Assembly: GCA_949295465.1 (NCBI GenBank)
Contig: CASFKY010000052.1
Location: forward strand, 1 to 44,058
Direction: 5' to 3'
Source: an uncultured Oscillospiraceae bacterium
GTDB lineage: Bacteria; Bacillota; Clostridia; Oscillospirales; Ruminococcaceae
Length of the DNA: 44,058 nt
The notes under the pieces are model-generated. The model was not told the origin of the DNA. It worked only from the letters and a program-made list of their open reading frames with translations, and did no database searches. This document shows positions 6,396-42,224 of the stretch, piece after piece (within the stretch, counting starts at the first letter, position 1; each line of letters begins with the position of its first letter). A program made the translations under genes and the position numbers.

Positions 6396-7147
6396 TAGAT
6401 ATTCCTCCCGCTGAAGATCTCGATCATCTCCCGCCGCAGCGAGTCGGTGATGGCCAGCCGCTCGGCCGGCGGCAGCTCGTACACGTCGGTCTTGAACAGG
6501 TAGTTTTGCAGATCGATCTCCTTGATAAGCATTTTGGTGTGGAAGAGGTTGGCCTCATACACGTTGATGTCCACACTGTCGTACCGGCGCAGGGTGGCGT
6601 CGTCGATATAGTCCTGGATAGAGGTGATGCGGTGGTCGGTGAAGAGCTTGCGGCCGGTCACGTCCCGGGTAAAGCCCCGCACCCGGTAATCCATGGTGAT
6701 GATGTCGCTGTCAAAGCTGCCGATCAGATAGTCCAGGGTGGACAGGGGGGTGATGGCCCCGCAGGTGGCCACGTCGATATCCACCCGGAAGGTGGCCAGG
6801 CAGGTGTCGGGGTGGTACTCCGGGTAGGTGTGCACCGTCACATGGCTTTTGTCCAGATGGGCCACCACCGTGTCTCCCACCGGCACCATGCTGTCCTCGG
6901 CCACCAGCAGGGTGACGCTGGCGCCCTGGGGGTCATAGTCCTGCTTGGAGATGTTCAGCACCCGGGCGCCGATCATCTCGGTGACATGGGTGAGGATGTC
7001 GGTGAGCCGGTCGGAATTGTACTGCTCGTCGATGTAGGCGATATAGTCTTTCTGCTCCCGGGGGGTCTTGGCATAGCAGACATCGTAGATATTGAAGCTG
7101 AGGGCCTTGGTGAGGTTGTTGAAACCGTAGAGTTTCAGTTTTTCCAT
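6392..7147 (-). CDS. speD: S-adenosylmethionine decarboxylase proenzyme SpeD (class 1A)
   Basis: A proenzyme of 251 residues that cleaves itself to form a pyruvoyl cofactor and then decarboxylates S-adenosylmethionine, supplying the aminopropyl donor for SpeE. The cleavage site is [13 protein letters not shown]: the chain should break before Ser101, leaving it as the pyruvoyl group. The catalytic cysteine is in [19 protein letters not shown] (about C129). Length and sequence fit the long E. coli-type class 1A rather than the short Bacillus SpeH form. It is the first gene of the operon, preceded by a leader of about 420 nt with a structured RNA and a terminator-like hairpin; the next gene begins inside its stop codon. 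Confidence 0.95.
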
Positions 7148-7323: not shown

Positions 7324-7544
7324 CGAGTCTATATAGCAAACGACTTACTTTTACTACTCTTATTGACCGTTTCACAAGTTTTGTGTGGGGCGCACACTGG
7401 TTATAAAGGAACCAACTTATAAAATTTGAGCTTTTAACTCAATCAATAAGGCAAACCAAGTTGCCAATCGGCTTTTGACCCGGCTGTCCGTATGGCCTTG
7501 ACTGCCCGAAAGCAGTGGTCAAAACATTTGCTGGGAAAGACTCG
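7324..7544 (-). ncRNA. Large structured leader RNA upstream of the polyamine operon
   Basis: About 220 nt with nested long-range pairing on the minus strand. P1 joins 7538-7544 to 7324-7330 (7 bp). P2 joins 7525-7532 to 7335-7342 (8 bp with one G-U). P3 joins 7517-7524 to 7473-7480 (8 bp) and encloses a small hairpin (7512-7516 with 7501-7505). Another long stem joins 7443-7450 to 7359-7366 (8 bp, with G-U extension). Several short hairpins fill the rest. The G-U pairs would be A-C mismatches on the other strand, which favours the minus strand, as does the promoter at 7576-7603. It could be a riboswitch-like leader or an independent non-coding RNA; I do not recognise the family with certainty. 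Confidence 0.6.
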
Positions 7545-21346: not shown

Positions 21347-22699
21347 TTAGAAGATGCCCTGCGCCATCATGGCGTCGGCCACCCGCTGGAAGCCCACCAG
21401 GTTGGCGCCGGCCACCAGGTCGTAGCCCAGGCCATACCGCTCGGCCACCTCCACAGAGGCGTCATAGATGTTCTTCATGATGCCGGTGAGCTTCTGGTCC
21501 ACTTCCTCAGCGGTCCAGTACAGGCGCTCGGCGTTCTGGGCCATCTCCAGCTCGGACACGGACACGCCGCCGGCGTTGACCGCCTTGGAGGGAGCCACGA
21601 CCATATGCTTCTGGCTGCGCAGCAGCTCCAGAGCGTCGTTGGTGGTGGGCATGTTGGCCACTTCGATGTAGTACTTCACGCCGGAATCCACGATCTTCTT
21701 GGCCCATTCCAGATTCACATCGTTCTGGGTGGCGGCAGGCATGTAGATGTCCACATCCTTGACGCCCCAGCACTTCTGGCCGGGCACGAACTCGCAGCCG
21801 AACTTCTTGGCATAGGGCTCGCAGTGCATGGGATCCTTGGCGCGCATCTCCAGGATGTAGTTCAGCTTCTCCTCAGTGGAGACGCCGTCGGGATCATGGA
21901 TGTAGCCGTCGGGGCCGGCGAAGTAGGTGACCTTGGCGCCCAGCTCGTTGGCCTTCTTGATGATACCCCAGCCCACGTTGCCGTAGCCGGAGATGGCGAT
22001 GCGCTTGCCGGCCAGATCCTCGCCGTCGTGGCGCAGCACTTCCCGCAGGTAGTACACGGCGCCGTAGCCGGTGGCCTCGGGGCGCAGGATGGAGCCGCCG
22101 GTGCAGACAGCCTTGCCGCTGACGGCGCCGAACTCGGCAGCGCCCACCAGGCGGCGGTACTGGCCGTACAGGTAGCCGATCTCACGGCCGCCGCAGCCCA
22201 GATCGCCGGCGGGGCAGTCGATGTCCTGGCCGATGTGACGGTACAGTTCGGTCATAAAGGCCTGGCAGAAGCGCATGACCTCGGCATCGCTGCGGCCGCG
22301 GGGATCAAAGTCGCTGCCGCCCTTGGCGCCGCCGATGGGCAGGCCGGTCAAAGCGTCCTTAAAAGTCTGCTCAAAGCCCAGGAACTTGATGATGGACAGG
22401 TTGACGGAGGGGTCGAAGCGCAGGCCGCCCTTGTAGGGGCCCAGCGCGGCGTTGTACTGCACGCGATAGCCGCGGTTGACATGGTACTGGCCGTTGTCAT
22501 CCATCCAGGTGACGCGGAACTCCACCGTGCGCTCGGGCTCCACGATCCGCTCCAGCAGGCTGGCTTTCTCGTACTCGGGGTGAGCATTGATCACAGGCTC
22601 AAGAGAGGAGAAGACCTCTTCCACAGTCTGCAGGAATTCGGGCTCGGAAGCGTTCTTTTTCTTGGTGGCTTCCAACACACGTTCGATGTATGCATTCAT
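21347..22699 (-). CDS. gdhA: NADP-specific glutamate dehydrogenase GdhA
   Basis: A cytosolic hexameric enzyme of 450 residues that makes glutamate from 2-oxoglutarate and ammonia, the main ammonium-assimilating step in many gut clostridia. The substrate-side motif GPYKGGLRFDPSVN, GLPIGGAKGGSDFDPRGRS with the catalytic lysine, PAGDLGCGGREIGYLYGQY, and the Rossmann motif SGYGNVGWG are all there. Length matches the bacterial NADP form. ATG 22699 follows AGGAGG by about 11 bases. It is the next gene after the two-component pair at 22968-25156, on the same strand, with 268 bp between that hold a likely promoter, so it may be a target of that regulator. Confidence 0.95.
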   Translation of the reverse strand: MNAYIERVLEATKKKNASEPEFLQTVEEVFSSLEPVINAHPEYEKASLLERIVEPERTVEFRVTWMDDNGQYHVNRGYRVQYNAALGPYKGGLRFDPSVNLSIIKFLGFEQTFKDALTGLPIGGAKGGSDFDPRGRSDAEVMRFCQAFMTELYRHIGQDIDCPAGDLGCGGREIGYLYGQYRRLVGAAEFGAVSGKAVCTGGSILRPEATGYGAVYYLREVLRHDGEDLAGKRIAISGYGNVGWGIIKKANELGAKVTYFAGPDGYIHDPDGVSTEEKLNYILEMRAKDPMHCEPYAKKFGCEFVPGQKCWGVKDVDIYMPAATQNDVNLEWAKKIVDSGVKYYIEVANMPTTNDALELLRSQKHMVVAPSKAVNAGGVSVSELEMAQNAERLYWTAEEVDQKLTGIMKNIYDASVEVAERYGLGYDLVAGANLVGFQRVADAMMAQGIF

Positions 22700-22967: not shown

Positions 22968-23813
22968 TCACTCCTGCGCGATCAGCACCAATCCGTCCAG
23001 AAACTTCTTGAGGCTGATCTTGCCGCCGGCCGCCCGCCGGCCCCGGATGTAATCCATCTCCGCCCGCAGTTCCTCAAAATTGAAGAGGGTGGAGGAATAC
23101 TGGGCGAAGGTGTCGTTCATGAAGTCCTCGATGCCCAGGTGGGCCAGGTTGGCCATGCCCACCGCGATGGCCCGGCGCACCCGCTGCTCCATGTTCTTGG
23201 GGTTGTCGCTGAGGCTCTCGCACAGCTGCCCCACGCTCATCTGGCTCACATCCAGCTGGTTTTCCAAAAGATAGCGGCAGAGCCGCAGGATGTCGGCGCA
23301 GCCCTTTTCTCCCGACATGCCCATCTGGGCCAGGGCGTTCTGCACCCGCTTCATCCGGGTATCCAGGGTGACCACCGGCGCGGCGGGCCCGGCCGCCCCC
23401 GGCTGCTGCTGGAAGATGCTGCGGATGCTCTCCAGGGTCTTTTCATTTTGCAGCTGCTTGGCCGCGTTGGAGATCACCGCCTGCACCTCGATCACATTGA
23501 TGGGCTTGGAGATGAAGAAATCCACCCCTGCCCGGTAGGCCTTGGCGATCATCTCCTTGGAGGAGACCTGGCTGAGCATGATGCACTTGGCGTCACAGCC
23601 CATCTGCCGCAGCCGGCTCACCACCTCGATGCCATCCCGCTGGGGCATGAGGAAATCCACCAGGATCAGGTCCGGCTTGGCCGCCAGGATCTGCTCCAGG
23701 GGAGGCACCGCGCTCATGGTGTCGCCGCACACCTCCCCCAGGCCCTGCTCTTCCACAATCCGCCGCAGAACCTGGATCACCGAGGGGTCGTCTTCTATAA
23801 TATAAATTCTCAT
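22968..23813 (-). CDS. GlnL/YcbB-type response regulator
   Basis: A two-component response regulator of 281 residues. The receiver domain (1 to about 120) has the acidic pair in IIEDD (D8, D9), the phospho-acceptor D53 in LILVDFLMP, and K103 in FISKPIN. After a Pro/Ala-rich linker near 140 comes an output domain from about 155 (KGCADILRLCRYLL, SLSDNPKNMEQRVRRAI) that fits the YcbB DNA-binding domain of Bacillus subtilis GlnL, which answers to glutamine. It overlaps the sensor gene by four bases (start at 23813, sensor stop at 23810), so the two are translated together. The next gene is gdhA, which fits a nitrogen-related role; the true targets are unknown. Confidence 0.85.
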   Translation of the reverse strand: MRIYIIEDDPSVIQVLRRIVEEQGLGEVCGDTMSAVPPLEQILAAKPDLILVDFLMPQRDGIEVVSRLRQMGCDAKCIMLSQVSSKEMIAKAYRAGVDFFISKPINVIEVQAVISNAAKQLQNEKTLESIRSIFQQQPGAAGPAAPVVTLDTRMKRVQNALAQMGMSGEKGCADILRLCRYLLENQLDVSQMSVGQLCESLSDNPKNMEQRVRRAIAVGMANLAHLGIEDFMNDTFAQYSSTLFNFEELRAEMDYIRGRRAAGGKISLKKFLDGLVLIAQE

Positions 23814-25156
23814 GTCTCACTCTCCAATTTCCGGGCCGGTATTTCCAGATAAAAGGCCGTCCTCTTGCCGGGCTCACTGCTGACCATCAGGCTGCCCTCC
23901 AGCTGTTCCTCCACCGAGAGCTTGACCCCCGGCAGGCCCATGCCCCGGCTCATGTTTCCTGTTTTTTCGTCATATTTTGTGGAAAATCCCATCTTGAACA
24001 CCGAGCGCATCAGTTCCGGCGGGATGCCGGGGCCATTGTCGATGACGGTGATGAGGTACTTGTCCCCCTGTTTTTCCTCCTCAATGCGCACCTCGCCCCG
24101 GCCGCCGGCCGACTGGATGGCCTCCACCGAGTTGGTGACCAGGTTGTAGAGGATGGACATGAGGGCGTAGTGATGGCGGGTGGTGAAATCCTGCTGACAG
24201 CGGAAATCCAGCCGGATCCGCTCCTCGTCCACATCCTTCATCCGATAGGTGGACTCCCGCAGGATCCGCAGAATGCTGGAAAAGCTCATGGCTCCCTCCT
24301 CCGCGCTCTCCCCGATCTGGCTCTCGATGCCCTGGGTGATGCGGATATAGTCCTTTTTGATGTCGTGGACATCGCAGGCGATCTGAAGGGCCAGCTTCTG
24401 GGTTTCGGGAGGGATCTCCATGCCGGAGAGTTCCTCGTACAGCCGGTAGGCATTGCGCACGATCCCCTCGATCTGCTCGGAGCTGCGGCGCATGAAATAG
24501 ATCTCGGTTTTGAGGCCGGTCTTCATCAAAAAGAGCTTCTGGTACCGCTCCTCGTGGCCGGCCTGGCTGAGCAGGCTGAAATAGCTCCAGTACAGCGCCA
24601 GCAGCGTGCCCGCGCACAGGGTGCGGAAACAGGCCACCAGCAGCAGCAATATGTAAAAGGTGTACTTCTGGCTGTCATAGCGCAGGCCGGTCTCAAAGCC
24701 CACCTCCACCAGGTTGGCCCCGAAATCGCACAGCAGGATGGTGACCATGATCCGCACCGTGGGCACTACGCTCTTTTTCTGCACCAGCAGAATGAAGAAG
24801 AGCCCGTACCAGGTATAGAACAGGGCCCCGTAAATGTTGCGGGTGAAGGCCTCCACCATACCCTGCCCCTGCAAAAGGCCCAGCCCGAAGCGGAAAACCG
24901 CCACCATGGCCGAGGTAAACAGCCCGGTGAGGAAGGGGTTGCTCTCCCGGGTGAGGGTCATCAGCAGTACCGGGAAAACCGCCACCGAGAGGCTGATGCG
25001 GAAGTCCTGCAAGGCAAAGTTGAAATACAGCTCGCTGAACAGGATGACCACCAGGCCGGTGAGGAGGATCTGCCGGTATTCTTTCAGCGTCCCGCTGACC
25101 GAAAGCCGCCTTGCGGGCAGCCGGGGGGGGCGCAGATTTTTCTCGTGAAATGGCAT
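23810..25156 (-). CDS. GlnK/YcbA-type membrane sensor histidine kinase
   Basis: A sensor kinase of 448 residues. The first 200 residues hold about six membrane helices with little outside the membrane. The cytoplasmic part carries the likely phospho-acceptor H264 in CDVHDIKKDY, an N box LYNLVTNSVEAI (338-346), the G1 box DNGPGIPPE and the G2 box SRGMGLPGVKL. This ATPase core is of the HPK class seen in GlnK (YcbA), CitA-like and agr-like kinases. It is translationally coupled to the response regulator gene. Its promoter, TTTACA-17-TATAGT, sits just upstream and leaves a very short leader. The signal sensed is not visible; glutamine is the analogy from Bacillus. Confidence 0.85.
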   Translation of the reverse strand: MPFHEKNLRPPRLPARRLSVSGTLKEYRQILLTGLVVILFSELYFNFALQDFRISLSVAVFPVLLMTLTRESNPFLTGLFTSAMVAVFRFGLGLLQGQGMVEAFTRNIYGALFYTWYGLFFILLVQKKSVVPTVRIMVTILLCDFGANLVEVGFETGLRYDSQKYTFYILLLLVACFRTLCAGTLLALYWSYFSLLSQAGHEERYQKLFLMKTGLKTEIYFMRRSSEQIEGIVRNAYRLYEELSGMEIPPETQKLALQIACDVHDIKKDYIRITQGIESQIGESAEEGAMSFSSILRILRESTYRMKDVDEERIRLDFRCQQDFTTRHHYALMSILYNLVTNSVEAIQSAGGRGEVRIEEEKQGDKYLITVIDNGPGIPPELMRSVFKMGFSTKYDEKTGNMSRGMGLPGVKLSVEEQLEGSLMVSSEPGKRTAFYLEIPARKLESET

Positions 25157-25292: not shown

Positions 25293-26372
25293 TCAAAGCG
25301 CCGCTTCCAGCGCCAGGGTCCGGCAGATGTTCCGGGCAAAGGCCTGTGTCCGCTGCCCGATGCCGGGCAGCCGCAGGGCGGCCCCCGCGTCGTTGGCGGT
25401 CTCCATCATGCAGAAGCGGGGCGGCAGATAGAAAGATTTGTTCATGTTGAGGGCCGAGATGAGCTGCCGGGCCACCAGGTCGCTGCCGGAATAGCCTGAC
25501 ACCACAATGGCAAACAGGGCCTTGTCATAAAACCGCCGGGTGCGGAACAGGGCCGTGAGCCGGTTGATGAAGGCGGTGAGGTTGGCCGACACCGCGTCGT
25601 TGTAGTTGGGGCAGAGCAGCAACACCCCGTCGGCGGCGCTCACCGCCGGGTAGACCTGGCGCACCATCACCCCGCCGTAAAAACAGCTGCCCTGCTCGCC
25701 GAAATGCAGGCAGGTCTTGTAGGGGCAGCCGGCGCAGTCCTCCAGGGTGCCGTTGCGCAGCCCGATCTCCTGGATCTCGCAGCCCCCCTCCAGCTGTTCC
25801 TTCACCTGCTGCCAGAGGGCCAGGGTGTTGCTGGTGGAGCGGTTGGAGGCGTGAAGCACCAGAAGCCGGGGCGGCCGGGCCGGACACAGGGGCCGGAAAT
25901 CCAGCAGGCGGCCGGCCAGCTCCCTCACCTCCTGCCGGTAGGCGTCCTCCAGGCCGGCGCCCAAGAGGCCCGCCCGCACCCGAAAGTTTTCCAGCGAGCC
26001 GGTGGCCTCCACCAGGGGCCGGCCCACAAAGGCGCAGCCCGCCTGGTTGGCGGCCAGCACCAGTTCCCGGGCCACCGCCTTGGTGTACAGCTCTCCCTCG
26101 CCGTCCACCACCAGGCCGCCGACGCAGCCTTCCAGGGGGCAGCCCCCGCCCCGCAGAGCCCCCAGCAGGGAATAATAGGCCGGGTTGAGGCCGTTTTGGT
26201 CCAGGGGCAGACAGAACAGCACCGGGCCGGGCCGTTCCAGGCGGCCAAGGCCTTCGGTATCTGTCAGCCGGCAGGGCAGGCCCTCCAGAGCCTTCTGAAG
26301 CACCCGGCGCATCCGGCCGGGCAGGTGAGCCGGGTCGGCGCCCGGCAGCCACACCGTGAGCACAGTGGACAT
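25293..26372 (-). CDS. Protein with two flavodoxin-like halves
   Basis: A soluble protein of 359 residues. The second half (from about 168) is a clear NAD(P)H-dependent FMN reductase/flavodoxin-like domain: LLVLHASNRSTSNTLALWQQ is the flavin phosphate loop, ENGTLEDCAGCPYKTC-like cysteine motif follows (DCAGCPYKTC seen), then LLLCPNYNDAVSANLTAFINR. The first half (1-160) repeats the same fold pattern weakly (PGPVLFCLPLDQNGLNPAYYS) and has lost the phosphate loop. It is the last gene of the cluster with the 1610-residue protein, 38 bp after the dehydrogenase-like gene. ATG 26372 fits, although the ribosome site (AGAGAAAAGAAG) is only fair. A role in electron transfer to a partner is inferred. 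Confidence 0.75.
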   Translation of the reverse strand: MSTVLTVWLPGADPAHLPGRMRRVLQKALEGLPCRLTDTEGLGRLERPGPVLFCLPLDQNGLNPAYYSLLGALRGGGCPLEGCVGGLVVDGEGELYTKAVARELVLAANQAGCAFVGRPLVEATGSLENFRVRAGLLGAGLEDAYRQEVRELAGRLLDFRPLCPARPPRLLVLHASNRSTSNTLALWQQVKEQLEGGCEIQEIGLRNGTLEDCAGCPYKTCLHFGEQGSCFYGGVMVRQVYPAVSAADGVLLLCPNYNDAVSANLTAFINRLTALFRTRRFYDKALFAIVVSGYSGSDLVARQLISALNMNKSFYLPPRFCMMETANDAGAALRLPGIGQRTQAFARNICRTLALEAAL

Positions 26373-26410: not shown

Positions 26411-27658
26411 TTATTCCAGCGGAGTGGCCAGGCCGGCCAGATGATCCGCCGCCTTTTGGATGCGCCGGAGCAGGGGCTCCGGCAGGGGCGCCAGCTCGGT
26501 TTCCAGCCCGAGGGGGGTATAGCGGTTCTTGCAGCCCATATATACGCCCCCCAGAAAGACCGAGCCGTAATGCCACTGCCCCCGCAGGGTGAGCAGCAGG
26601 CTGAGGGCCCCCGAGGAGAAGGCCGGCGCCACATAGGGCTTATAGCCCAGGGCCCGCATTTCCAGGTTGGCCCGCACCGCCTTTTGGGTCAGCTCGTCGC
26701 TGAGGGCCGGGTCGTAGTGCTCCAGAGAGTTGGCGATGACCAGGTCCTCCCCGTGGGGGCCGAAGGCCCGGCCCTGGGTGAGGAAGGAGGAAAACCGCTC
26801 CTCCTTTTTGGCGTAATAGGCCGCCCGGGCGTTCATCACCCCCAGGCCGTAGCCCTGGATCTGCTCCGGGCGCAGTCCCTTGCCGTCCCAGCGGCCCTCT
26901 TCGTCCCGGTTGCTCTCCTCGAACATCACCCGGGCCAGGGGGTCCACCGGGTCGCTCACCTGGCAGAACAGCCCCTCAAAGCCCTCCTGCCGGGCCTGGC
27001 GGGCATAGCCCGCCACGATCTGCCGGTTGGCCTCAAACTGGGCCATACGCACGTCCTGCACCTGGCTGCCCACCGGTGGGATGCTGCGGCTGGCAATGAA
27101 GGCCGCCGCGTCACACTGGAAAAACTCCTTGGGAGAGATGACCTCCACCGGGGGCAGGGCGTCGTACTCCCAGGGATAGGCGATCTGGTTTGCCTCAAAC
27201 TCCCACCGGGCGGCGGCCTTTTCGTTCAGGTCACAGATGCCGATGCTCTCGATCACATCCCCGCCCAGAAGCCGCAGGCCGGTGAGCAGGGTGCCCCCCA
27301 CATCCCCCATGGCCAGCAGGTTCACCCGCTTTTTGCCGGTTTTGGGGGCAGGCGCCACCAGTTTCTCCCAGCCGGGATACCGCCGGTTCACCGCCCGCAG
27401 TCCTCCCTGACGGAAGGCCTGCCGCACTGGCTCGTCCAGCCGGGCCGGCCCGGCGCAGGAATGTTCGTCCAGCCAGGCCACGCTCTCGGGCCCGGCCCCC
27501 AGCAGCTCCGGCCGGGTAAGGGCAAAGCTGGCACGGCAGCGGCGGGGGTCCGCCTCAAAGAGGTAGCCCCGGGGCATCTGGGGCCGTGGCAGCGGCTCCA
27601 GCCCCTCGCAGGGGGTCAGAGAGCAGCAGACCGTGCCCTCCACAAGATAATAGTACAT
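26411..27658 (-). CDS. Lactate/malate dehydrogenase-like protein with N-terminal extension
   Basis: A 415-residue protein. From about residue 108 it follows the lactate/malate dehydrogenase plan: the NAD loop VNLLAMGDVGGTLLTGL, Asp143 in GICDLNEK at the end of the second strand, CQVSDPVDPLARV (compare NPVD), GYGLGVMNARAAYYA (compare GLDSARF), and GPHGEDLVIAN with the catalytic-type histidine. The first 105 residues are not part of that family and include cysteines at 11, 12, 17, 41 and 68. Sequence is far from ordinary LDH or MDH, so the substrate is probably different. It starts 18 bp after the 1610-residue gene and is surely co-transcribed with it. Confidence 0.72.
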   Translation of the reverse strand: MYYYLVEGTVCCSLTPCEGLEPLPRPQMPRGYLFEADPRRCRASFALTRPELLGAGPESVAWLDEHSCAGPARLDEPVRQAFRQGGLRAVNRRYPGWEKLVAPAPKTGKKRVNLLAMGDVGGTLLTGLRLLGGDVIESIGICDLNEKAAARWEFEANQIAYPWEYDALPPVEVISPKEFFQCDAAAFIASRSIPPVGSQVQDVRMAQFEANRQIVAGYARQARQEGFEGLFCQVSDPVDPLARVMFEESNRDEEGRWDGKGLRPEQIQGYGLGVMNARAAYYAKKEERFSSFLTQGRAFGPHGEDLVIANSLEHYDPALSDELTQKAVRANLEMRALGYKPYVAPAFSSGALSLLLTLRGQWHYGSVFLGGVYMGCKNRYTPLGLETELAPLPEPLLRRIQKAADHLAGLATPLE

Positions 27659-27676
27659 GAAAGCTTCCTTTCTGCC

Positions 27677-30600
27677 TCAGCCCAGGATGCGCCGGGCGCG
27701 GCGGAGCATATGCAGATCATTTTCCAGATACACCGAGGGGGAGAGGTTGGGGTCATAGGCCAGGCAGCTGCCCTTGTCCGGGCAGAGGGGCAGGATGACC
27801 GCCTCATTCAGGCGGCTGAGGGTCAGGTTGCGGCCAAACTGATGGCGGTACTCCGACTCCAGCACCAAAAAGATCTCCCGGGCGTTGGACAGGCAGCACT
27901 CGGAGAACTCAAACAGGGCCTTCTGGCTGCACCCCTTCATCCGGGGCACCGCGTAGGGCAGAATGAAGTTCACCGAGGGCATCAGCCCGGCCACCTGACG
28001 GGTGGCCCGGCGCACGGTGTCGCCGCCGATGAAGGGATAGAGGGTGGACTCCACAAACCAGCGGCGCAGGCTGGGCAGGGAGTAGACCGCGTCCACCGGC
28101 AGGCCGGTGGAGGCCACCAGGTCCCGGCCATGGGCCGAGAGCACCCCCAGCAGCACCCCTTTCACCTCCACCCCCTCTTTGCGGAAGAGGGGCAGCACCG
28201 CTTGAAGCCGTCCGGGCCGGTGGAGGATGTCGTCCAGCAGCACCACCGGGCGGCCGAAGCTCTTGATAACCCGGATCTGGCTTTCCAGGCTGGTATAGCC
28301 GGGGAAGGGCTCGATGGCGTCCTGCTCCAGGGTGGGATTGTACACCTTGTCGGTGTGGAGGGTCTTGGTGACGGTGTTGGGCACCACCCGCCCCCGCATC
28401 AGCTTGCCGAAGGGCACGCACATGAGGGGACCCAGCTGCCTGGGCTGGGTGGGCTGACGGGGCACCCCGTTCTGGGCGGTCATCTTGGTGACCATCTCCT
28501 CCAAAAGCAGGCTGGAGGGCAGGCTCAGCACCAGCTGGCCGGGGTAGAGCCCGGTCATGGCCAGTTGCAGCCGGCTGTGGGCCTCCTGAATGGCCCGCAG
28601 CAGCCGGGGGCTGGAGGAGAAGGGAGCCTTGAAGGTGGTCTCCAGGTTTTGCAGCAGCACCAGCGGCTGGTGCATATCCACCAGGGCCACCGGCTCGTCG
28701 GCGGTGGAGGAGGAGGCCATCACAAAGCCCTGGCGCTCCAGCGCCCGCCGCACACCGGCAGTGAGGGAGAGATGGGGGATGAAGGCCGCGAAGTTGCAGC
28801 CCCGGGCCAGCCCCTCGGCCAGGGCCTGGGCCAGGATCCACTGCTCCGGGTCCGGCAGGCCGGACTGGCGGGCCACATACAGCCCGCTCAAAAGCAGCAG
28901 CCGGCCGCAGGCGCTCTCCTGGCGCACCTGCTCGGCCAGGGCCACCGAGCCCAGGGCCTCCAGCAGGTCCTCGCTCTCCACCACCCGCAGCCGGGCAAAG
29001 CCGGCGGGCAGGCCGCTGTCCGCATGGCGCAGCACCAGCAGCATGTCCCCGGTAACCGCGATGGAGGTGAGCACATCCCGGGCATAGGGGTGCTTGTGGA
29101 GGACGGTGTCCCCCAGCTGGCGCAGCAGCCCCTCGGCAGGGCGGCTCACCAGTTCCTTATAGAGGGTGCGCTTGTCCAGCACCATCTTGAATTTGTTCTC
29201 CCGCAGGTAGCGGCCGTCGGAGTAGATATATTCCTGCACCACCGGGTCGATCAGATTGGAGATATCCCGGTTCAGGTCGATGTTCTCCCGGATGCGGGTG
29301 GAACTGATGTCCTCCAGATCCGGCGGCAATTGCAGCCGGATGATCTCCCCCTCGATGCAGCTCCAGCTCTTTTCCTCCTCGGCCCGTCGGGAGGGCTCGA
29401 TGCGGCTGAACAGGATGTGGTTGAGGGAGTGGACGCTGCCCGGGCTGGGCGGGTCCCGGTAGGCCGAGGCCCCCCGGATCACGTCGCCTCCCGCCACCAG
29501 GTAGAGGGGCCGCCCCTCAAAGATCCGACGCAGCCGGTTCAGATCGCCGGGGTTGGCGATGTTCACCGGGATGTTGTCCGGGAAGAGGTGGACATGGAAC
29601 TCGTCCGCCACCGACATGTTCACGATCTGACGGCGCACCAGATGGGGCTGGGTGTTTTTGGACCAGGAAAACTCGTCCACCGCCAGGTACACCTCATACC
29701 CCAGATCCCGGATGAGGCGCACGATCCCCTTGTGGGAGAGGGTGAAGGGGTCGAAGGTGCCGGGGAAAAAGGCCACCCGCCGGTATTCCTGGGTTTGCAG
29801 ACGGCCCCGGTCGATGTTGTACACCGACAAAAAGCGGCACAGATGGCTCAGCAGGGCCGCCCGGTAGTAGACGTTCAGCTCGCCGGCCTTGTTCTCCTCC
29901 ATCAAAAAGAGGATCTTCTTGTAGGCCAGGCTCAGCACCCAGCCCTTGAGCCGCTCGCTGGGCACATCCGACTCGAAGAAGCGGGCCAGGGCCCACATGG
30001 CCTCCTGGCGCACCTCCTCCCGGTAGTTGGCCATGCCGCCCAGCAGGATGCCCAGCAGCCCCTCCTGCCGGTGGAGGCCCTGCTCCCCTTTTTCCAAAAA
30101 GCGGCCGCCGTACTCCTCATAATAGCTCAGCATGATGCCGATGGTCTCCAGGGCCACGCTGGCGATCCGCTCGTTGGCGCTGGCCAGATAGGAGTGGAGG
30201 CTCATGATCAGCTCATCCAGCTGCTCGGGGGGCAGCCAGAGGGCGAACCGGCCCAGGCAGCCGGGGATGTACTTGGAAAACTCGTACTCCCCCACTTCCA
30301 GGCCCTTCACCAGTTCCACCGCGATCTCGTTGCGCTGGTCCGGGCTGAGCCGCCCCACCAGCCGCAGCAGGGCCGTGCCCGCGTCCATGCGCACCACCAC
30401 ATGCTCGCTCACCTTTACCAGATTGGACAGGTGGGTGGCAATGTGGAGCAGGTGATCCAGCCGGCCGTGGTCCACCTGGTCCACCAGCAGCTTGATGTTC
30501 ACTGCCTTCAGGATCCAGGGAGTGGAGGTCTTGAGATTGTCCAGGAAAATCTCGCTCACCACATCGGTGCCGTAGAGGATCTTCTGCTGGCTGGCGGTGT

Positions 30601-32509
30601 CGCAGCCCAGGTTGCTCAGGATGCGGTACTGCAAAAACAGGGTGGTGATGTCGCTTTCCACCGGCATCCGCCGGGCCATCTCCTCCACCCCCGCAAGGGC
30701 CGGGTGATCTTTGGGCAGGGCCGCGGTGAGGATCTTGAAATACCGGGACGCGGCAATCCGCAGCCGAAGCCGATCGTCCTCAAAATACCGGGCCGCAAAG
30801 CCCGCCAGGCATTTCAGGTCCTCCTCCTCGGCCAGCTCCATGGGCAGGTCGTACAGAGCATCCAGCAGCGCAAAGGCGGTGTCCTCGTCCTCTTGCCAGT
30901 TCTCATACCGCCTGAGCAGTTCCTTATAGAAGATCCTGGCGTCCTGCGGGCTGCTCCGGCCGAACAGGGAGGCCACCACGATCTTGAGGGTGTAGCCCAG
31001 CCAGCTCTTGTGCCGGGCCGTGAGCTTGTGGTCGGGCTGGGTGATCACGTCCAGGGTCTGGTTCCACAGGGCCACCGCGTCCACCTCGTCCCGGTCCCGG
31101 GTGTGGGCGGGATGCTCTTTGCGGTAGCCGGCGTCGTACTCGGCAATCACCTGACCCACCAGCATGGCGGCATACCGGCGGATGTCTCCCTCCCGGTGCA
31201 TGAGCAGCTCGTACAAAAAGCCCAGGGTCTGCTTTTTCTGGGCAAAGCTCAGGTAGGTGGAATATTCCTGGAAAACCGTCAGGTAGGCCCGGATGTGCTT
31301 CCAGTTTTTCTCGCTGCGGGCGGCCTCCAGCAGGTTGCCGAACTGCCGCTCGGTGGAGAGAGTGTGCATCACCCGGATGTTGTGGTCAATGCCCATGTAG
31401 GCCAGGCTCTTGAGGGTGTCCTCGGCGCTGCGCAGGGCGATATCCGGCAGGACGGCCGGCTTCTGGGGATGGCCGGTCAGGTCCACATCCACCCCCAGCG
31501 AGCGCATGTAGCCCTCAAAATCCTCCAGGCGGGAGTAGACGAACTTGTACCGGCGCAGCTTGGCCTGGTCCACATTGTCCAGCTTTTCCAGGATCACGTC
31601 AAAGGAATCCTTCAGGGAGTAGATGCGGGCGATCTCCCGGCCCTTCTCGTCCTTTTCCTGCTTGACCCGGAAATCCGCATAGATGAGGCAGAGGTTTTCG
31701 GCCGAGAGGTTTTCCAGCTCCAGGTCCCAGGTGGAGTGATTGGCGGCGATGTGGCCCAGCTCGTCCAAGTTCATCTGGTGGAACCACTGGTCGGTGTAAT
31801 AATAGTGCAGGTAGGGCACCCGCTCGCCGGGGCGGCAGCCGAACTTGCCCAGGTCGTGCCCGGCGCAGGCGCCGCTGGTGAGGGAGAGGTCCAGCGGCAG
31901 GCCCGCCGCCAGCATCCCCCGGGCCACTGTCACCGCCACATAGTGCACCCCGGCGATGTGCTCCAGGGTGCGGTAGGGGGTGACCTCCTCCCCCAGCCGC
32001 AGCATCTCATAGATGTACTGGCTGTGCCAGGCCGCCTTGAAGCGCAGATAGGCCCGGCCGTTGGGATATTGGAGCGCCTCCTCGTCCCGGAGGAATTCCA
32101 GGTCCACCATGGGGTCGAAGGGCTCCTGCTGGCGCTCGGCGTCCAGGAAAAACTGGAGCACTCTCAGATAAAAATACAGGGCCGCCCGGCTCTTTTCCAG
32201 GGGCGCCATATATTCCTTCTGGCCGAACATGGTGTAGCGCACCAGGTGATAGGCCCCCTCCATCCAGCCGCACTCCGGCGCCGGGGTCAGCCGCTCCATG
32301 GCCGGGCGGCACAGCTCCAGGATGGCGGCGCAGTCCACCCGGCCGCTCAGGGGCCACAGCCCGGCCAGGGCCGTCTCCCACTCCTCCCGGCGCAGGGCGG
32401 TTTCCAGCGCGCCCCTGGAAAGGCCTGCCTGGCGCAGAAAACCCCGGTCGGTCAGGGTCTGGGTGATCTGCTGATACAACGCGTGGATCTGCTGCTTGTG
32501 AGTCATCAT
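27677..32509 (-). CDS. 1610-residue multidomain protein: HD, helical repeats, NadD-like, GNAT-like, PRT-like
   Basis: A very large cytoplasmic protein. Residues about 170-260 look like an HD phosphohydrolase (EHIAGVHY, CAGHDLGKFG with H218-D219, HIAANHS). About 350-900 is a run of amphipathic helices resembling HEAT-like repeats (RREVRQEAMWALARFF-type units). Residues 911-1095 are a NadD-like nucleotidyltransferase: FFPGTFDPFTLSHKG, where TxSH stands for the usual (H/T)xGH, and DISSTRIRENI at 1067-1077. About 1130-1265 resembles a GNAT acetyltransferase. About 1290-1500 has RPVVLLDDILHRPGRL (1420-1435), like the PRPP loop of phosphoribosyltransferases. Two ATGs stand in tandem (32509 and 32506) after GGGAGG. 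The domain calls are mine by eye; the function is unknown, but the mix points to nucleotide or cofactor chemistry. Confidence 0.8.
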   Translation of the reverse strand: MMTHKQQIHALYQQITQTLTDRGFLRQAGLSRGALETALRREEWETALAGLWPLSGRVDCAAILELCRPAMERLTPAPECGWMEGAYHLVRYTMFGQKEYMAPLEKSRAALYFYLRVLQFFLDAERQQEPFDPMVDLEFLRDEEALQYPNGRAYLRFKAAWHSQYIYEMLRLGEEVTPYRTLEHIAGVHYVAVTVARGMLAAGLPLDLSLTSGACAGHDLGKFGCRPGERVPYLHYYYTDQWFHQMNLDELGHIAANHSTWDLELENLSAENLCLIYADFRVKQEKDEKGREIARIYSLKDSFDVILEKLDNVDQAKLRRYKFVYSRLEDFEGYMRSLGVDVDLTGHPQKPAVLPDIALRSAEDTLKSLAYMGIDHNIRVMHTLSTERQFGNLLEAARSEKNWKHIRAYLTVFQEYSTYLSFAQKKQTLGFLYELLMHREGDIRRYAAMLVGQVIAEYDAGYRKEHPAHTRDRDEVDAVALWNQTLDVITQPDHKLTARHKSWLGYTLKIVVASLFGRSSPQDARIFYKELLRRYENWQEDEDTAFALLDALYDLPMELAEEEDLKCLAGFAARYFEDDRLRLRIAASRYFKILTAALPKDHPALAGVEEMARRMPVESDITTLFLQYRILSNLGCDTASQQKILYGTDVVSEIFLDNLKTSTPWILKAVNIKLLVDQVDHGRLDHLLHIATHLSNLVKVSEHVVVRMDAGTALLRLVGRLSPDQRNEIAVELVKGLEVGEYEFSKYIPGCLGRFALWLPPEQLDELIMSLHSYLASANERIASVALETIGIMLSYYEEYGGRFLEKGEQGLHRQEGLLGILLGGMANYREEVRQEAMWALARFFESDVPSERLKGWVLSLAYKKILFLMEENKAGELNVYYRAALLSHLCRFLSVYNIDRGRLQTQEYRRVAFFPGTFDPFTLSHKGIVRLIRDLGYEVYLAVDEFSWSKNTQPHLVRRQIVNMSVADEFHVHLFPDNIPVNIANPGDLNRLRRIFEGRPLYLVAGGDVIRGASAYRDPPSPGSVHSLNHILFSRIEPSRRAEEEKSWSCIEGEIIRLQLPPDLEDISSTRIRENIDLNRDISNLIDPVVQEYIYSDGRYLRENKFKMVLDKRTLYKELVSRPAEGLLRQLGDTVLHKHPYARDVLTSIAVTGDMLLVLRHADSGLPAGFARLRVVESEDLLEALGSVALAEQVRQESACGRLLLLSGLYVARQSGLPDPEQWILAQALAEGLARGCNFAAFIPHLSLTAGVRRALERQGFVMASSSTADEPVALVDMHQPLVLLQNLETTFKAPFSSSPRLLRAIQEAHSRLQLAMTGLYPGQLVLSLPSSLLLEEMVTKMTAQNGVPRQPTQPRQLGPLMCVPFGKLMRGRVVPNTVTKTLHTDKVYNPTLEQDAIEPFPGYTSLESQIRVIKSFGRPVVLLDDILHRPGRLQAVLPLFRKEGVEVKGVLLGVLSAHGRDLVASTGLPVDAVYSLPSLRRWFVESTLYPFIGGDTVRRATRQVAGLMPSVNFILPYAVPRMKGCSQKALFEFSECCLSNAREIFLVLESEYRHQFGRNLTLSRLNEAVILPLCPDKGSCLAYDPNLSPSVYLENDLHMLRRARRILG

Positions 32510-32600
32510 TTTCCTCCCTGTCCCGGCCGGGGCCGGCGGTCATCCATTTTCAGCACAAAGGCCGCAGCCGCCGCAAAGGGCAGCTGCGGCCGGGGTCGCC

Positions 32601-33128
32601 TTACAGGATCTCCAGAAGCCGCCCTTCCTTGCGGGGCGCGCCCTCTGCCGGCTGGCTGGCCGGATAGCCCAGGATGCAGTGTCCGACCCCCCGGTACTCG
32701 CCTTCCAGCCCCCAGGAGGCCAGAAGCCGCTTGCCCTCTTCGCTCTCAAACACTTCCCGGGCCCGGTGGATCCAGCAGCTGCCCAGCCCCAGGCTGGCGG
32801 CCGCGTTCATCATATTGCCCATGGCCAGGCTGCCGTCCTCCACGGCGGTGGGGATGTCGGCCTTCACCAGCACCACCACCACGGTGGGCGCCCCGTAGAA
32901 GGGGTCCATCTCCGGCTTGCCCAAGATCTGCGCGTTCAGGCGGCTGAGGGTGTCCCGGGTGGCCTTGTCCTGCACGGCCACAAACAGCACCGGCTGGCGG
33001 CCCATGCCGCTGGGCGCCCAGGCCCCGGCCTCGATCACCGTCTCCATCTCTTCCAGGCTGATCTGACGGTCCTGATAAGCGCGGCAGCTGCGGCGCTGGC
33101 GCATATTCTGCAAAACAGCGTTATCCAT
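32601..33128 (-). CDS. Nitroreductase family FMN protein
   Basis: A 175-residue flavoprotein of the nitroreductase family, which uses FMN and NAD(P)H to reduce nitro groups, quinones or other acceptors. RRSCRAYQDRQI at the N-terminus is the FMN phosphate-binding arginine cluster, APSGMGRQPVLFVAV the usual second motif, and MNAAASLGLGSCWIHRA the helix that closes the fold. ATG 33128 has GGAGGA about nine bases upstream; the frame's extension to 33218 covers the promoter. It lies 91 bp before the 1610-residue gene, with a weak stem (GGCCGCAGC and its complement, about 32549-32600) between them, so co-transcription is likely but may be reduced. Confidence 0.88.
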   Translation of the reverse strand: MDNAVLQNMRQRRSCRAYQDRQISLEEMETVIEAGAWAPSGMGRQPVLFVAVQDKATRDTLSRLNAQILGKPEMDPFYGAPTVVVVLVKADIPTAVEDGSLAMGNMMNAAASLGLGSCWIHRAREVFESEEGKRLLASWGLEGEYRGVGHCILGYPASQPAEGAPRKEGRLLEIL

Positions 33129-33218: not shown

Positions 33219-33338
33219 TCAGCAGTTTGCGCTCCCCCGCCGGTTTGAGGTCTTTTCTGCCGCGCGCAAAGGACGCAAACCGGCAAAAAAATTTTTGCGC
33301 CGGGCCCCGCCCCTCTGCCATCCGCCCCCGACGTCTGA

Positions 33339-33344
33339 TATAAT
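33339..33344 (+). promoter_or_regulatory. -10 box of the AI-2E family gene
   Basis: A perfect TATAAT lies 45 bp before the start codon in otherwise GC-rich sequence. The matching -35 position (about 33316-33321, TGCCAT) is poor. Confidence 0.55.
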
Positions 33345-33389
33345 GGAGACAGAAACCGGCGAATTTTGTCGAGGAGGGAGGCGATACCC

Positions 33390-34778
33390 ATGAAGCGGAA
33401 CTTTTGGGCCATCCGGGGGCACACCGCCTCCAAGCTGGTGGTGGTGCTGTGGGGCGTGCTGTTTTTTGTGGCCCTCTCTCATCTGGACCTCTGCCTGCGG
33501 CTGATCGGGCAGGTGGGGGATGCGTTCCACCCCATCCTCATCGGGCTGGCCCTGGCCTACCTCATCGATCCCCTGGCCCGCTGGCTGGAGGCCCGGAAAC
33601 TCTCCCGGCGGCTGGCCGTCTGGCTGGCGTTCCTCTTTTTCCTGCTGGTGGGCGGGGCGGCGCTGGGGCTGGGGCTGCCCCGGCTGTTCAAGAGCCTTGT
33701 AGCCCTGCTGGTGAGCGTGCCCTTCTATTTTTCCCAGTTGCAGGATCTGATGGGCTGGGTCCAGGAGGCCTACGGGTTTGACGCCTCCCCGGTTCTGGAT
33801 TTGATGGGCACCTATGTGGGCTTTATGGATCATGCCCTGGAGTGGTCCCTGGCCCATCTGCCCCTGCTCTTGAGCTACGGCCAGAGCCTGGCCGGAGAGC
33901 TGGTGGATTTTTTCACCGGCCTGATCCTGGCGGTCTACCTGCTGTTCAGCAAAAAGACCCTTTTGCGCCAGTGCCAGAAGACGGTGTGGGCGCTCTGCCC
34001 GCCCGCGGCTGCCCGGCGGATCTTCCACATCTGCGGCACCGCCTCCCGGATGCTGCGGGGCTTTATCGGGGGCAAGGTCCTGGAGAGCATGGTGATCTGG
34101 TTTTTCTGCCTTCTCATCTCCTCCCTGGCGGGCATCCCCTATGCCGCCCTGCTGAGCCTGGTGGTGGGGCTGGGCAACATTGTGCCGGTGCTGGGCCCCC
34201 TGGCGGCGGGCGTCGTCTGCTGCCTGCTTCTGTTGGTGCTGAACCCCTTCAAGGCCCTGGTGTTCGCGGTGATCCTGCTGGTATTGCAGCAGGCGGACAG
34301 CAAGATCCTCTCCCCCCTCATCCTGGGGGACGCCACCGGCCTCAAGACCTTCTGGGTGCTGGTGGCCATCCTGGCCGGCGGCGGGGTGGCCGGGGTGCCC
34401 GGCATGGTGCTGGGGGTGCCGGTCTTTGCAACCCTGTACACCCTGGGCCGGGAATGGATGGACGGGCGGCTGGCCCGCAAGGGCATTGACGAGGAGGGCG
34501 AGCCGGTCCAGGAGGCGCCCCCCTATCAGGAGACCTTCGAGGCCGCCAAAAGCCGGGCCGGGGACTATATGCAGGTGGAACTGCGCCTGGAGGAAAAGAC
34601 CCTCACCGACATCTGGGGCGACGCCGAAAGCGCCCTTACCCCGGGGCTGGAAGACCTGGCCGGCCTGCCCGGCGAGCCTCAAAAGGCCGGCAGCCCCCCG
34701 GCCTCCCCGGAGGGCAAGGGCCCCGAAGCCGGCCGCGCCCCCGATTCGCCCGAAGGCCCCGGGCCTTCGGAGCCCTGA
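33390..34778 (+). CDS. AI-2E/PerM family membrane protein
   Basis: An integral membrane protein of 462 residues. The AI-2E (PerM) family consists of about eight-helix exporters or permeases; members export autoinducer-2 or take part in ion homeostasis, and most are uncharacterised. Typical segments are FHPILIGLALAYLIDPLARW, the central helices, GNIVPVLGPLAAGV and the C-terminal QQADSKILSPLILGDATGL. After residue 370 comes a long Glu/Pro/Gly-rich cytoplasmic tail that most family members lack. ATG 33390 has GAGGGAGG upstream at a good distance. It is followed by a terminator-like hairpin and is not obviously tied to the glycolytic genes behind it. Confidence 0.88.
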   Translation: MKRNFWAIRGHTASKLVVVLWGVLFFVALSHLDLCLRLIGQVGDAFHPILIGLALAYLIDPLARWLEARKLSRRLAVWLAFLFFLLVGGAALGLGLPRLFKSLVALLVSVPFYFSQLQDLMGWVQEAYGFDASPVLDLMGTYVGFMDHALEWSLAHLPLLLSYGQSLAGELVDFFTGLILAVYLLFSKKTLLRQCQKTVWALCPPAAARRIFHICGTASRMLRGFIGGKVLESMVIWFFCLLISSLAGIPYAALLSLVVGLGNIVPVLGPLAAGVVCCLLLLVLNPFKALVFAVILLVLQQADSKILSPLILGDATGLKTFWVLVAILAGGGVAGVPGMVLGVPVFATLYTLGREWMDGRLARKGIDEEGEPVQEAPPYQETFEAAKSRAGDYMQVELRLEEKTLTDIWGDAESALTPGLEDLAGLPGEPQKAGSPPASPEGKGPEAGRAPDSPEGPGPSEP

Positions 34779-39968: not shown

Positions 39969-42224
39969 TTATTTTCCCTCGTCGGGGGCAGTGCGGCTCC
40001 TCCAAAGCCGCCTGCCTTGTACCCCCAGGGCCCCCAGCCCCAGAACTGTGACCAGGCTGACCCCCTCGGCCAGCCGGAACAGACGCCGCTCGGCGTATAC
40101 CACTGTGACGGTGCCGCTCTGATACTCCGCCGGCACGCTGACGCAGACAAGGCCGCTCTCCTCCCATCGGGTAACGGTCAGCTGAGTGCCGTCTTCCAGA
40201 AATGCCCGGTGCATTCCATAATAATACAGGGGCACCTCAAAAGCTGCCGGCTCGCCGCTGGTATTCTGGAACTGGAAGGTGACCTGCAGGTTTTCCCGGC
40301 TGCCGCTGATCACCTGGGCCTGCCCCAGAGAACGGACATTCCCCTCCTTCAGCCGGTTGCACAGGTCAACGGTGTCATCCTGGACCAAAAGATACTGCCC
40401 ATCATAGAGGGTGTTGTGGTCCCAGATGTCCGACTTGGTTTTCATGGCGCAGGAGTTGCAGTACAGATAACCGCTGCCCATGAGGGAGGCCCCCGACAGG
40501 GTGAACACCGCCAGCACCGTGGCTGCCATCTTCTTTTCCTGCCGCAGCTGCCGGAACACCACCGCCAGCACCAGACAGTACATGACGCTGGAGATGATCA
40601 GACAGCGCCAGGCAAACTGGATCTTGGAAGCCAGGGCGTCCAGCACCGGGATCTGCTGGATCTGCTGCCAGGGGAAGAGATCCGAAGCCATGAAGAGGGC
40701 GATGGTCCCGACCCAGAAGGCCGCCAGCGCCTTGGTGCGCAGGTCTTCGTCCTCTCCGGGGCCGGGCCTGCGGGCCAGACAGCACACAAACAGCACCAGC
40801 CCGATGAGCACCGCCATCCCCAGAGAAACCACGATCTCCCCGGTGGTGGTGGTATCCCCGTTTTCTCCCGTGGTGGAGTAATATTCCACAAAGGCCTGGA
40901 ACAGATAGACCGAAGCCGAGCCCACATCCGGCCGGGCCTCATAGATCTTCAGCCCCCAGCCGGAATAGAACGCGAAGGGCACCAAGAACCACAGGTTCAG
41001 CGCCAGGGTAGCTGCCGCCGAGCCGCACAGGGTCAGCATCCGCCGCCCCTGCCTCAGCAGCCGGCCCCGGGTACCGATGAGCACCGCCAGGGCATAGCCC
41101 GCCCCGAAAAAGAGCACCAGCAGGGTGGTGATCAGATGGGACTGGAACACCCCGGTGATCCCCAGGCAGGCGCAGAAAAATCCCTTTTTATACTCCTGCT
41201 GGAACAGCTGCCACAGCCCCACTGCCACCAGGGGCAGGAAGATCATAGCCAGTGCCTCCCCGATGGCCGCCCGCACATACACATCCCCCAGCCGGTAGGG
41301 GTTGAGCAGATAGAACAGGGCAAAATACAGCGCCTTTTCCCGGCCCAGCATCTGCCTGGCAGCCCCATAACCCACAAAGGCGGTGGCCAGATGGATCAGG
41401 GCGCAGAGCACCTTGAAGGCAAACAGCACCGAGGCCCCCAGCGCACAGAGCACCCCGGGCAGATACAAAAACAGTTCCGGGTACATCACCGGGGAGAGGT
41501 AGCCTCCCCCGTACAGGAAATCCGGGTTGAGCCGCACCGGGAACTGACCACTTAAAAGGGCCTGGGCGATGCCGTCGATACGGGTGAGGTGAAAATCCAG
41601 GTCGTGGCCCCGCTGGAGGTGTTGGGTCAAAAGGGGCAGGCTCACCAGCACCGAGGCCCCCAGCAGCACAAGGGGCTCCTGCCTGCCTTTCCGCCAGGCC
41701 CGCAGCGCCGCCCAGAACCCGGCTGCCAGCAACAGCGCCAGCGCCAGGCCCCAGAAAGCGTCGGTATACACCGGCTTCAGCGAGAGAGCCTGGCAGCTGT
41801 TCAGGGTCAGCTCTCCCTCCTCCAGATAGCTGCGCACCACCACACAGGCCAGACGGCTGTCAAGGGATGCAAAGACGGTGACGCTGCCGCTGTCCGGCTC
41901 GTACCGGCCCTCCGCCAGCACCTGACAGCTGTCCCGGTCCAGGATCTCAAAGCGATTCTGGGCACTGGTACTGCTGTATTCCAGGGTAAACTCATAATCG
42001 CCCGGGTAAAAGCCGTTCATCTCAAAACCCTCGGCGATCATCTGCCCTTCAAACCCGCTTTTATCCCCGGCTTCCTCATAGCCGTCCACATAGCGTGGTT
42101 CCTCGCTCTTATATTTATAATAATCCTTGGGACGGGCACCCCAAAAAATCAGGAGCAGCGACAGCACCAGTGCTACCGCCGTCCACAGTTGGACAGGGCC
42201 TGCTGTTTTGAATCTTCTCTTCAT
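39969..42224 (-). CDS. Large polytopic membrane protein, GT-C-like
   Basis: A 751-residue protein with one membrane helix near the N-terminus (about 12-30), an outer beta-rich domain of about 130 residues, then 11-12 membrane helices and a C-terminal outer domain ending in a last helix. After the second helix comes TQHLQRGHDLDFHLTRIDGI, an acidic loop placed as in GT-C glycosyltransferases that use lipid-linked sugars, and GGGYLSPVMYPELFLYLPG. It resembles the YfhO-like and 6-pyruvoyl-tetrahydropterin-synthase-related membrane families. A role in cell-surface glycan or lipid glycosylation is likely but not shown. It follows the gene at 42336 with a promoter and a hairpin between them. Confidence 0.68.
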   Translation of the reverse strand: MKRRFKTAGPVQLWTAVALVLSLLLIFWGARPKDYYKYKSEEPRYVDGYEEAGDKSGFEGQMIAEGFEMNGFYPGDYEFTLEYSSTSAQNRFEILDRDSCQVLAEGRYEPDSGSVTVFASLDSRLACVVVRSYLEEGELTLNSCQALSLKPVYTDAFWGLALALLLAAGFWAALRAWRKGRQEPLVLLGASVLVSLPLLTQHLQRGHDLDFHLTRIDGIAQALLSGQFPVRLNPDFLYGGGYLSPVMYPELFLYLPGVLCALGASVLFAFKVLCALIHLATAFVGYGAARQMLGREKALYFALFYLLNPYRLGDVYVRAAIGEALAMIFLPLVAVGLWQLFQQEYKKGFFCACLGITGVFQSHLITTLLVLFFGAGYALAVLIGTRGRLLRQGRRMLTLCGSAAATLALNLWFLVPFAFYSGWGLKIYEARPDVGSASVYLFQAFVEYYSTTGENGDTTTTGEIVVSLGMAVLIGLVLFVCCLARRPGPGEDEDLRTKALAAFWVGTIALFMASDLFPWQQIQQIPVLDALASKIQFAWRCLIISSVMYCLVLAVVFRQLRQEKKMAATVLAVFTLSGASLMGSGYLYCNSCAMKTKSDIWDHNTLYDGQYLLVQDDTVDLCNRLKEGNVRSLGQAQVISGSRENLQVTFQFQNTSGEPAAFEVPLYYYGMHRAFLEDGTQLTVTRWEESGLVCVSVPAEYQSGTVTVVYAERRLFRLAEGVSLVTVLGLGALGVQGRRLWRSRTAPDEGK

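Follow-up and report, generated by a model that had tools for sequence, protein, structure and literature searches.

The window, i.e. the whole stretch of 44,058 nucleotides that was analyzed, carries a gene for a 1610-residue protein for which we use the working name BIG. The preliminary description had placed an open reading frame of 1610 codons at 27677-32509 without naming a strand; we find the frame at exactly this position on the minus strand, and the sequence features listed for it, namely H218-D219, GTFDPFTLSHKG (from residue 917), ISSTRIRENI (from 1068) and VVLLDDILHRPGRL (from 1422), are all present. The window genome is close to Fournierella, as judged from the 95% protein identity of both a same-genus genome (G001) and the Fournierella massiliensis locus L038. 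Compared with L038, the BIG frame differs at 68 first, 38 second and 369 third codon positions, and of 427 codon changes 353 were synonymous and 74 non-synonymous. Thus, the frame is under protein-level selection and represents a real gene. The sequence GGGAGG, read by eye, lies immediately 5' of its ATG. A plus-strand open reading frame of 2168 codons (26441-32947) overlies BIG and LDHL, the gene that follows it. An antisense artifact of GC-rich third positions (GC3 of 0.89) accounts best for this frame; the longest frame on the antisense strand of L038 has 1053 codons. Directly downstream of BIG lie LDHL and then FMN, and all features are summarized in Table 1.

Table 1 Features of the BIG locus, with window coordinates and the evidence for each assignment.
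Feature	Position	Strand	Evidence
BIG, whole gene, 1610 aa	27677..32509	minus	ORF list, coding pattern
N-terminal variable region, residues 1-150	32060..32509	minus	mean top-residue frequency 0.43
HD domain, residues 151-345	31475..32059	minus	Pfam HD in members, invariant residues
HEAT-like helical repeats, residues 346-905	29795..31474	minus	Pfam HEAT in 20/41 members
NadD/NMNAT-type nucleotidyltransferase, residues 908-1105	29195..29788	minus	Pfam, TIGR00482, PDB, profile-profile
Motif GTFDPFTLSH	29732-29761	minus	in nucleotidyltransferase domain
Motif ISSTRIR	29288-29308	minus	in nucleotidyltransferase domain
GNAT-like domain without acetyl-CoA loop, residues 1110-1284	28658..29182	minus	hhalign 75.5%
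PRT-like domain and C-terminal tail, residues 1285-1610	27680..28657	minus	Pfam, hhalign, motif check
Altered PRPP motif	28208-28246	minus	in PRT-like domain
LDHL (partner 1), 415 aa, lactate-dehydrogenase-like, extra N-terminal part	26411..27658	minus	profile matches, co-occurrence
FMN (partner 2), 359 aa, NADPH-dependent FMN reductase domain	25293..26372	minus	Pfam FMN_red, co-occurrence
Two-component pair, HATPase kinase and YcbB-type response regulator	22968..25156	minus	neighbor, not obligate
Glu/Leu/Phe/Val-family dehydrogenase, read as glutamate dehydrogenase (GDH)	21347..22699	minus	associated, not obligate

Several further features were observed in the window, all on the minus strand. 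At 7468-7521, an Rfam SpF59/ldcC RNA (RF02440; 70.1 bits, E = 2.8e-10), of a family named for a Streptococcus sRNA, lies upstream of the S-adenosylmethionine decarboxylase gene (6392-7147) of this Clostridia genome. A 487-residue open reading frame upstream of a nitroreductase gene (33219-34682) matches no Pfam family at cut-off; it shows a sub-threshold Cas6 match (0.0097) and has a 65% identical counterpart in L038. A frame of 751 residues at 39969-42224 is likewise without a Pfam match.

No model in the libraries searched covers full-length BIG as a whole, and neither these libraries nor our literature searches returned a description of BIG or of the triad that it forms with LDHL and FMN. 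We therefore describe the protein region by region, using a conservation alignment of 112 rows, two of which have no HD region; motif counts over 110 rows leave out two near-copies, L005 and L038. The HD domain was recognized by Pfam in 16 of 41 BIG members (best E = 6.4e-7), and no HD model was reached by the window's sequence on its own. Residues H184, H218, D219, H235, H258, D262 and D279 are invariant in all 110 rows having a letter there, and the metal-ligand pattern H...HD...H...D of the HD phosphohydrolase superfamily is complete in BIG (110/110). We considered YqeK as the identity of this domain and rejected it, as the profile similarity of 7.3% did not rise above noise (10.1% for a reversed profile, 13.0% for an unrelated GNAT-like profile). 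Pfam HEAT matched 20 of 41 members (best E = 2e-5) in the helical region that follows. PDB sequence relatives of the HD and HEAT regions are weak.

The nucleotidyltransferase domain gave the clearest similarity to a known family. Aligned by hhalign to 25 NadD-like sequences from related genomes, which had been chosen by their HxGH motif, it reached a probability of 99.3% (E = 4e-20, 192 columns), compared with 0.2% for the reversed control. Pfam CTP_transf_like was found in all 43 BIG members scanned, and the NadD part is mainly what the window's sequence shows when searched alone (Pfam E = 4.8e-4, slightly short of the family threshold; TIGR00482, 8.3e-7). The curated NCBIfam NadD equivalog cut-off of 112 bits was missed by the window protein (29.2 bits) and by that of A. 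noterae (44.9 bits). PDB relatives by sequence include human NMNAT (2.8e-6), the best being an uncharacterized protein (3h05, 2.6e-7). H926, S1069, S1070 and R1074 are invariant in 112 of 112 rows. The preliminary description had read TxSH in place of TxGH as an alteration, which the alignment does not bear out: residue 925 is Ser in 96 of the 112 rows and Gly in the other 16, so that TxSH is the family norm, and the catalytic His does not vary. SYTxDT, the NaMN-recognition loop of NadD, occurs in 0 of 110 BIG rows. The pattern itself finds only 11 of the 25 NadD-like sequences, but the alignment of BIG with these has a gap at the place of the loop; NaMN is therefore not the expected substrate of BIG. 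At another locus of this genome, a CTP_transf_like gene (C54:33648-34115, 70 bits) adjoins a YqeK gene (C54:32986-33474), and the two look like an ordinary nadD-yqeK pair.

The two C-terminal parts showed weaker similarity to known families. The GNAT-like part matched 22 GNATs, a narrow set chosen by the GNAT loop motif, with a probability of 75.5% (E = 2.4e-5, 123 columns), and yielded no Pfam or PDB sequence match. The acetyl-CoA loop pattern (R/Q)xxGx(G/A) was present in 5 of 110 rows, the three printed ones falling upstream of the expected place. Pfam Pribosyltran was detected in 7 of 43 members (best E = 2.6e-4), and the window's sequence alone matched an adenine-PRT model at 0.0086. By hhalign, the PRT-like part scored 54% against all 30 PRTs, which had themselves been chosen by the PRPP motif, and 44% and 20% against the sets that we presume to be hypoxanthine-type and PyrR-type from their motifs, in each case over 20-30 columns round the PRPP motif. 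When reversed or unrelated profiles were compared with the GNAT and PRT sets as controls, probabilities did not exceed 1.2%. Against the PDB, the PRT-like profile retrieved nothing but designed repeat proteins, and we regard these as chance. Within the PRT-like loop, D1426 and R1434 do not vary. The TGxT part of the PRPP motif DDxxxTGxT is absent in 110 of 110 rows, in agreement with the loss of TGT pointed out earlier for the window protein, and this makes a normal PRPP-dependent reaction unlikely for BIG. A search for stand-alone relatives of the PRT-like domain returned none in the phylum sample of 398 genomes, in which all eight matches fell within open reading frames of 1573-1667 residues.

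Mean conservation was 0.71 for the HD domain, 0.73 for the nucleotidyltransferase, 0.68 for the PRT-like core, 0.55 for the HEAT region and 0.42 for the GNAT-like part. Judging from these values together with residue invariance and motif loss, the HD and nucleotidyltransferase domains look catalytically intact, while one domain appears rebuilt and one structural. Taken together, the HD, HEAT and NadD-type parts of the five-part architecture proposed in the preliminary description were found, and its GNAT-like and PRT-like parts were detected weakly to moderately. Both this architecture and the idea of a nucleotide-linked chain are supported, and a lack of any HD, nucleotidyltransferase or PRT similarity in profile searches, the outcome named there as refuting the reading, was not observed.

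The preliminary description had included neither the two partner genes nor the glutamate/ammonia neighbors of some loci. The LDHL profile matches L-lactate dehydrogenases of the PDB (best 4m1q, 9.3e-6), and its scores of 17.8 and 29.3 bits are far under the LDH cut-off of 303.55. The printed alignment pairs R204 with the Arg of the LDH loop. Two further residues, R278 and H302, do not vary, and we take them to be the substrate Arg and the catalytic His of LDH; M275 presumably sits at the position of the usual catalytic Asp. As the Asp is lacking by this motif reading, a redox role of LDHL is not certain. FMN carries a Pfam FMN_red domain (5.1e-23) and four invariant cysteines, C213, C216, C221 and C230, which suggest an iron-sulfur flavoprotein. 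A search of PDB sequences with its profile came back empty at E up to 0.01.

Both partners accompany BIG closely. LDHL (E up to 1e-20) was present in 31 and FMN (E up to 1e-30) in 30 of 32 BIG-positive genomes, and each in 0 of 48 BIG-negative genomes, the latter hand-picked from class-scan genomes with NadD-like matches only. The genomes with misses, G234 (both partners) and G296 (FMN), are 84% and 82% complete, and each has only a partial BIG match. LDHL was also found in all eight phylum-sample genomes having the PRT-like domain, six of them outside the class. Among 81 loci, comprising the best 80 of at least 572 relatives from one contig scan plus A. noterae, the LDHL cluster was present at 68 and the FMN cluster at 61; some loci end before the partners. 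The gene order BIG-LDHL-FMN is preserved in most loci. BIG copies without adjoining partners include those of L203, L223 and L215 and the second copy in L056, and the genome of L215 carries LDHL on a different contig.

Beyond the triad, we detected no general fixed neighbors, other clusters being confined to particular groups. A dehydrogenase of family PF00208 (Glu/Leu/Phe/Val type, read as GDH) is found no more than 10 kb from the unit in nine of 37 BIG-positive genomes (G000, G001, G167, G189, G212, G255, G276, G332 and G401), compared with about half a genome expected by chance in a rough hand estimate; the 37 genomes contain 47 PF00208 places. These nine genomes are not independent, since they are confined to two families. 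Anaerovorax odorimutans and STD2_228 provide a third GDH arrangement. Over 111 loci, a GDH match was seen at 12, among which the window and L038 belong to one genus and L079, at 33%, is weak. The YcbB-type two-component pair, which we take to be GlnK/GlnL-like, is near six loci and a Na/glutamate symporter near three. Between BIG and LDHL, G082 and G191 carry three genes for a split glutamate synthase together with one for an ammonium transporter (Amt). Within the stretches examined, 97 of the 111 loci have neither GDH nor glutamate synthase nor Amt, and the positives come from few lineages; the nitrogen link may therefore be partly chance or lineage habit.

Riboswitches were considered as a clue and rejected. 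Of 19 sources scanned, two (L197, 1867-1986; L199, 2467-2585) have an FMN riboswitch followed by an ECF transporter gene ahead of BIG, the transporter having been assigned from a scan of the L197 copy. At the remaining 17, no riboswitch adjoins BIG on its upstream side, the c-di-AMP riboswitch of L205 being about 2 kb away.

Two of the 37 genomes from the window's family have long BIG matches, as do 32 of 391 genomes of its class (a few of them contig fragments, and the remaining matches listed almost all pieces of the NadD region) and 8 of 398 genomes of the phylum sample. The triad has been kept together in gut genera as well as in Acetoanaerobium and Anaerovorax, across many families of Clostridia and some outside the class. 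A FastTree tree of 109 rows places the window in a supported group of 18, whose other 17 rows carry 13 Lachnospiraceae and four Clostridiaceae labels. This placement and the rarity of BIG in the window's family suggest a horizontal gain, although the tree method is quick and some branches are long. One contig labeled Anaerolineaceae (Chloroflexota; L113) carries BIG, LDHL and FMN and is placed within an Oscillospiraceae-rich group, which would reflect either a recent transfer or a mis-binned metagenome-assembled genome. Out of 72,556 records of a plasmid collection, one has a long BIG match. This 2.6-Mb Acetoanaerobium record (L007, NZ_CP154629.1), filed as a plasmid in PLSDB with four annotated features, looks like a chromosome, judging from the ordinary-looking chromosomal genes in the stretch read. 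A role of BIG as a defense or phage gene was rejected: the window's BIG, LDHL and FMN gave no PADLOC or PHROGs profile match at E up to 0.01, and pattern-based scans of IMG/VR returned no relatives of BIG or LDHL.

We tentatively propose, at somewhat less than an even chance, that the BIG triad is a metabolic module, perhaps nitrogen-linked, organized around an enzyme able both to form and to break down a nucleotidylated small molecule. BIG would be the central enzyme of this three-protein module. Its NadD-type domain would load a small acceptor other than NaMN with a nucleotidyl group, most likely AMP taken from ATP; we infer both 'adenylyl' and 'small acceptor' from the superfamily only. The HD domain, with its full metal-ligand set, may take phosphate or the nucleotidyl group off the same or a related compound, and the HEAT region would act as a spacer between the two active sites. 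The rebuilt loop (DD..H.G.R) of the PRT-like domain might hold the acceptor or a phosphorylated ligand, with no PRPP bond being made, and the GNAT-like domain would be structural or sensory. Redox steps on, or aided by, the nucleotidylated product could fall to the two partners, the NAD-binding LDH-like protein and the flavoprotein, and the neighbors in some lineages would indicate glutamate/ammonia metabolism. The proposal builds on the observed architecture, residue conservation, co-occurrence, gene order and neighbors; activity of both catalytic domains, the direction of flow and the link to nitrogen are elements that we infer. BIG copies lacking adjoining partners and the many loci with no core nitrogen gene count against it. 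It is also possible, if doubtful, that the triad makes and uses an undescribed adenylylated compound in gut Clostridia, either a new nucleotide cofactor or a nitrogen-status signal, with BIG as writer and eraser and its PRT fold re-purposed for a non-PRPP ligand.

BIG could instead be a GlnD-like controller of nitrogen status acting on a protein or signal compound, to which the nucleotidyltransferase would attach a nucleotidyl group and from which the HD domain would take it off again, with the degenerate GNAT-like and PRT-like domains as sensors replacing ACT and with LDHL, FMN or glutamate enzymes as targets. Two conserved, possibly opposing catalytic domains, two domains with lost catalytic motifs, and the GDH, GOGAT, Amt and YcbB two-component neighbors at some loci would all fit such a design. 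However, GlnD uses a nucleotidyltransferase of the Pol-beta type fold, and neither this nor an ACT Pfam family was detected at E up to 0.05 in the two scans of 43 and 41 BIG members. To our knowledge, the substrates of NadD-fold enzymes are small phosphate esters or carboxylates and not protein side chains. The PRT-like core is also conserved nearly as strongly as the active domains, beyond the needs of a mere sensor, and core nitrogen genes are absent at most loci. We consider a controller of this kind unlikely.

Alternatively, BIG might build a novel cofactor of the nucleotide type, consisting of a base or ring, ribose phosphate and AMP, for use by the LDH-like and flavin partners, in which case the altered PRT would still form or remodel a ribose-phosphate bond. 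In NAD salvage, a phosphoribosyltransferase acts before an NMNAT-type enzyme, an order mirrored by PRT-type and NMNAT-type domains in one chain, and both partners have cofactor-using folds and were found in none of the 48 sampled BIG-negative genomes. The absence of TGxT from every row and the merely local PRT similarity speak against this route, to which we assign a low probability. The GlnD-like and new-cofactor readings overlap with the metabolic module that we favor, and the three are not separable by sequence. A spare NAD-salvage enzyme, combining NMN/NaMN adenylyltransferase and phosphatase, appears quite improbable: NadD is the nearest single family, and the nadD-like gene of this genome adjoins one for an HD protein, YqeK, yet the genome thereby already has such a pair, the NaMN-binding loop is absent and BIG is tied to two redox partners. 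Given the nadD-yqeK-like pair, we also judged BIG unlikely to be the housekeeping NAD enzyme.

BIG and its two redox partners constitute a sizeable unknown in common gut bacteria. Should the favored reading of nucleotidyl transfer and HD activity hold, the triad would point to a nucleotide-linked compound that is new, or to a route of nitrogen control in bacteria not known to use GlnD, and it is directly testable because co-occurrence is near all-or-none.

Compared with known systems, GlnD shares with BIG a nucleotidyltransferase, an HD domain and possible sensor domains, as well as a nitrogen context at some loci, but differs in its nucleotidyltransferase fold; BIG has no detected ACT domains and no sign of a protein target. 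LDHL resembles L-lactate dehydrogenase in its PDB profile match and in three invariant positions (Arg, Arg and His), of which two are assigned from LDH motifs, and departs from it by the extra N-terminal part, the Met at the Asp position and the sub-cut-off score. PurR/PyrR-type proteins use PRT folds for binding and would offer a parallel for the changed use of a PRT fold proposed for BIG, but they keep the PRPP motif, whereas BIG does not. NadD-YqeK fusions exist, and this pair likewise brings NadD-type and HD domains together; BIG adds the HEAT spacer and two more domains, and its HD domain is not YqeK-like above noise. In contrast to NadD, BIG is without the NaMN loop, has TxSH/TxGH for HxGH, embeds the domain in a chain of 1600 residues and is found in a genome with an additional nadD-like gene. 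With NadD (TIGR00482), BIG nevertheless has in common the fold over the whole length of NadD, the GxFDPxxxxH and ISSTxIR motifs and the C-terminal YI....LY stretch.
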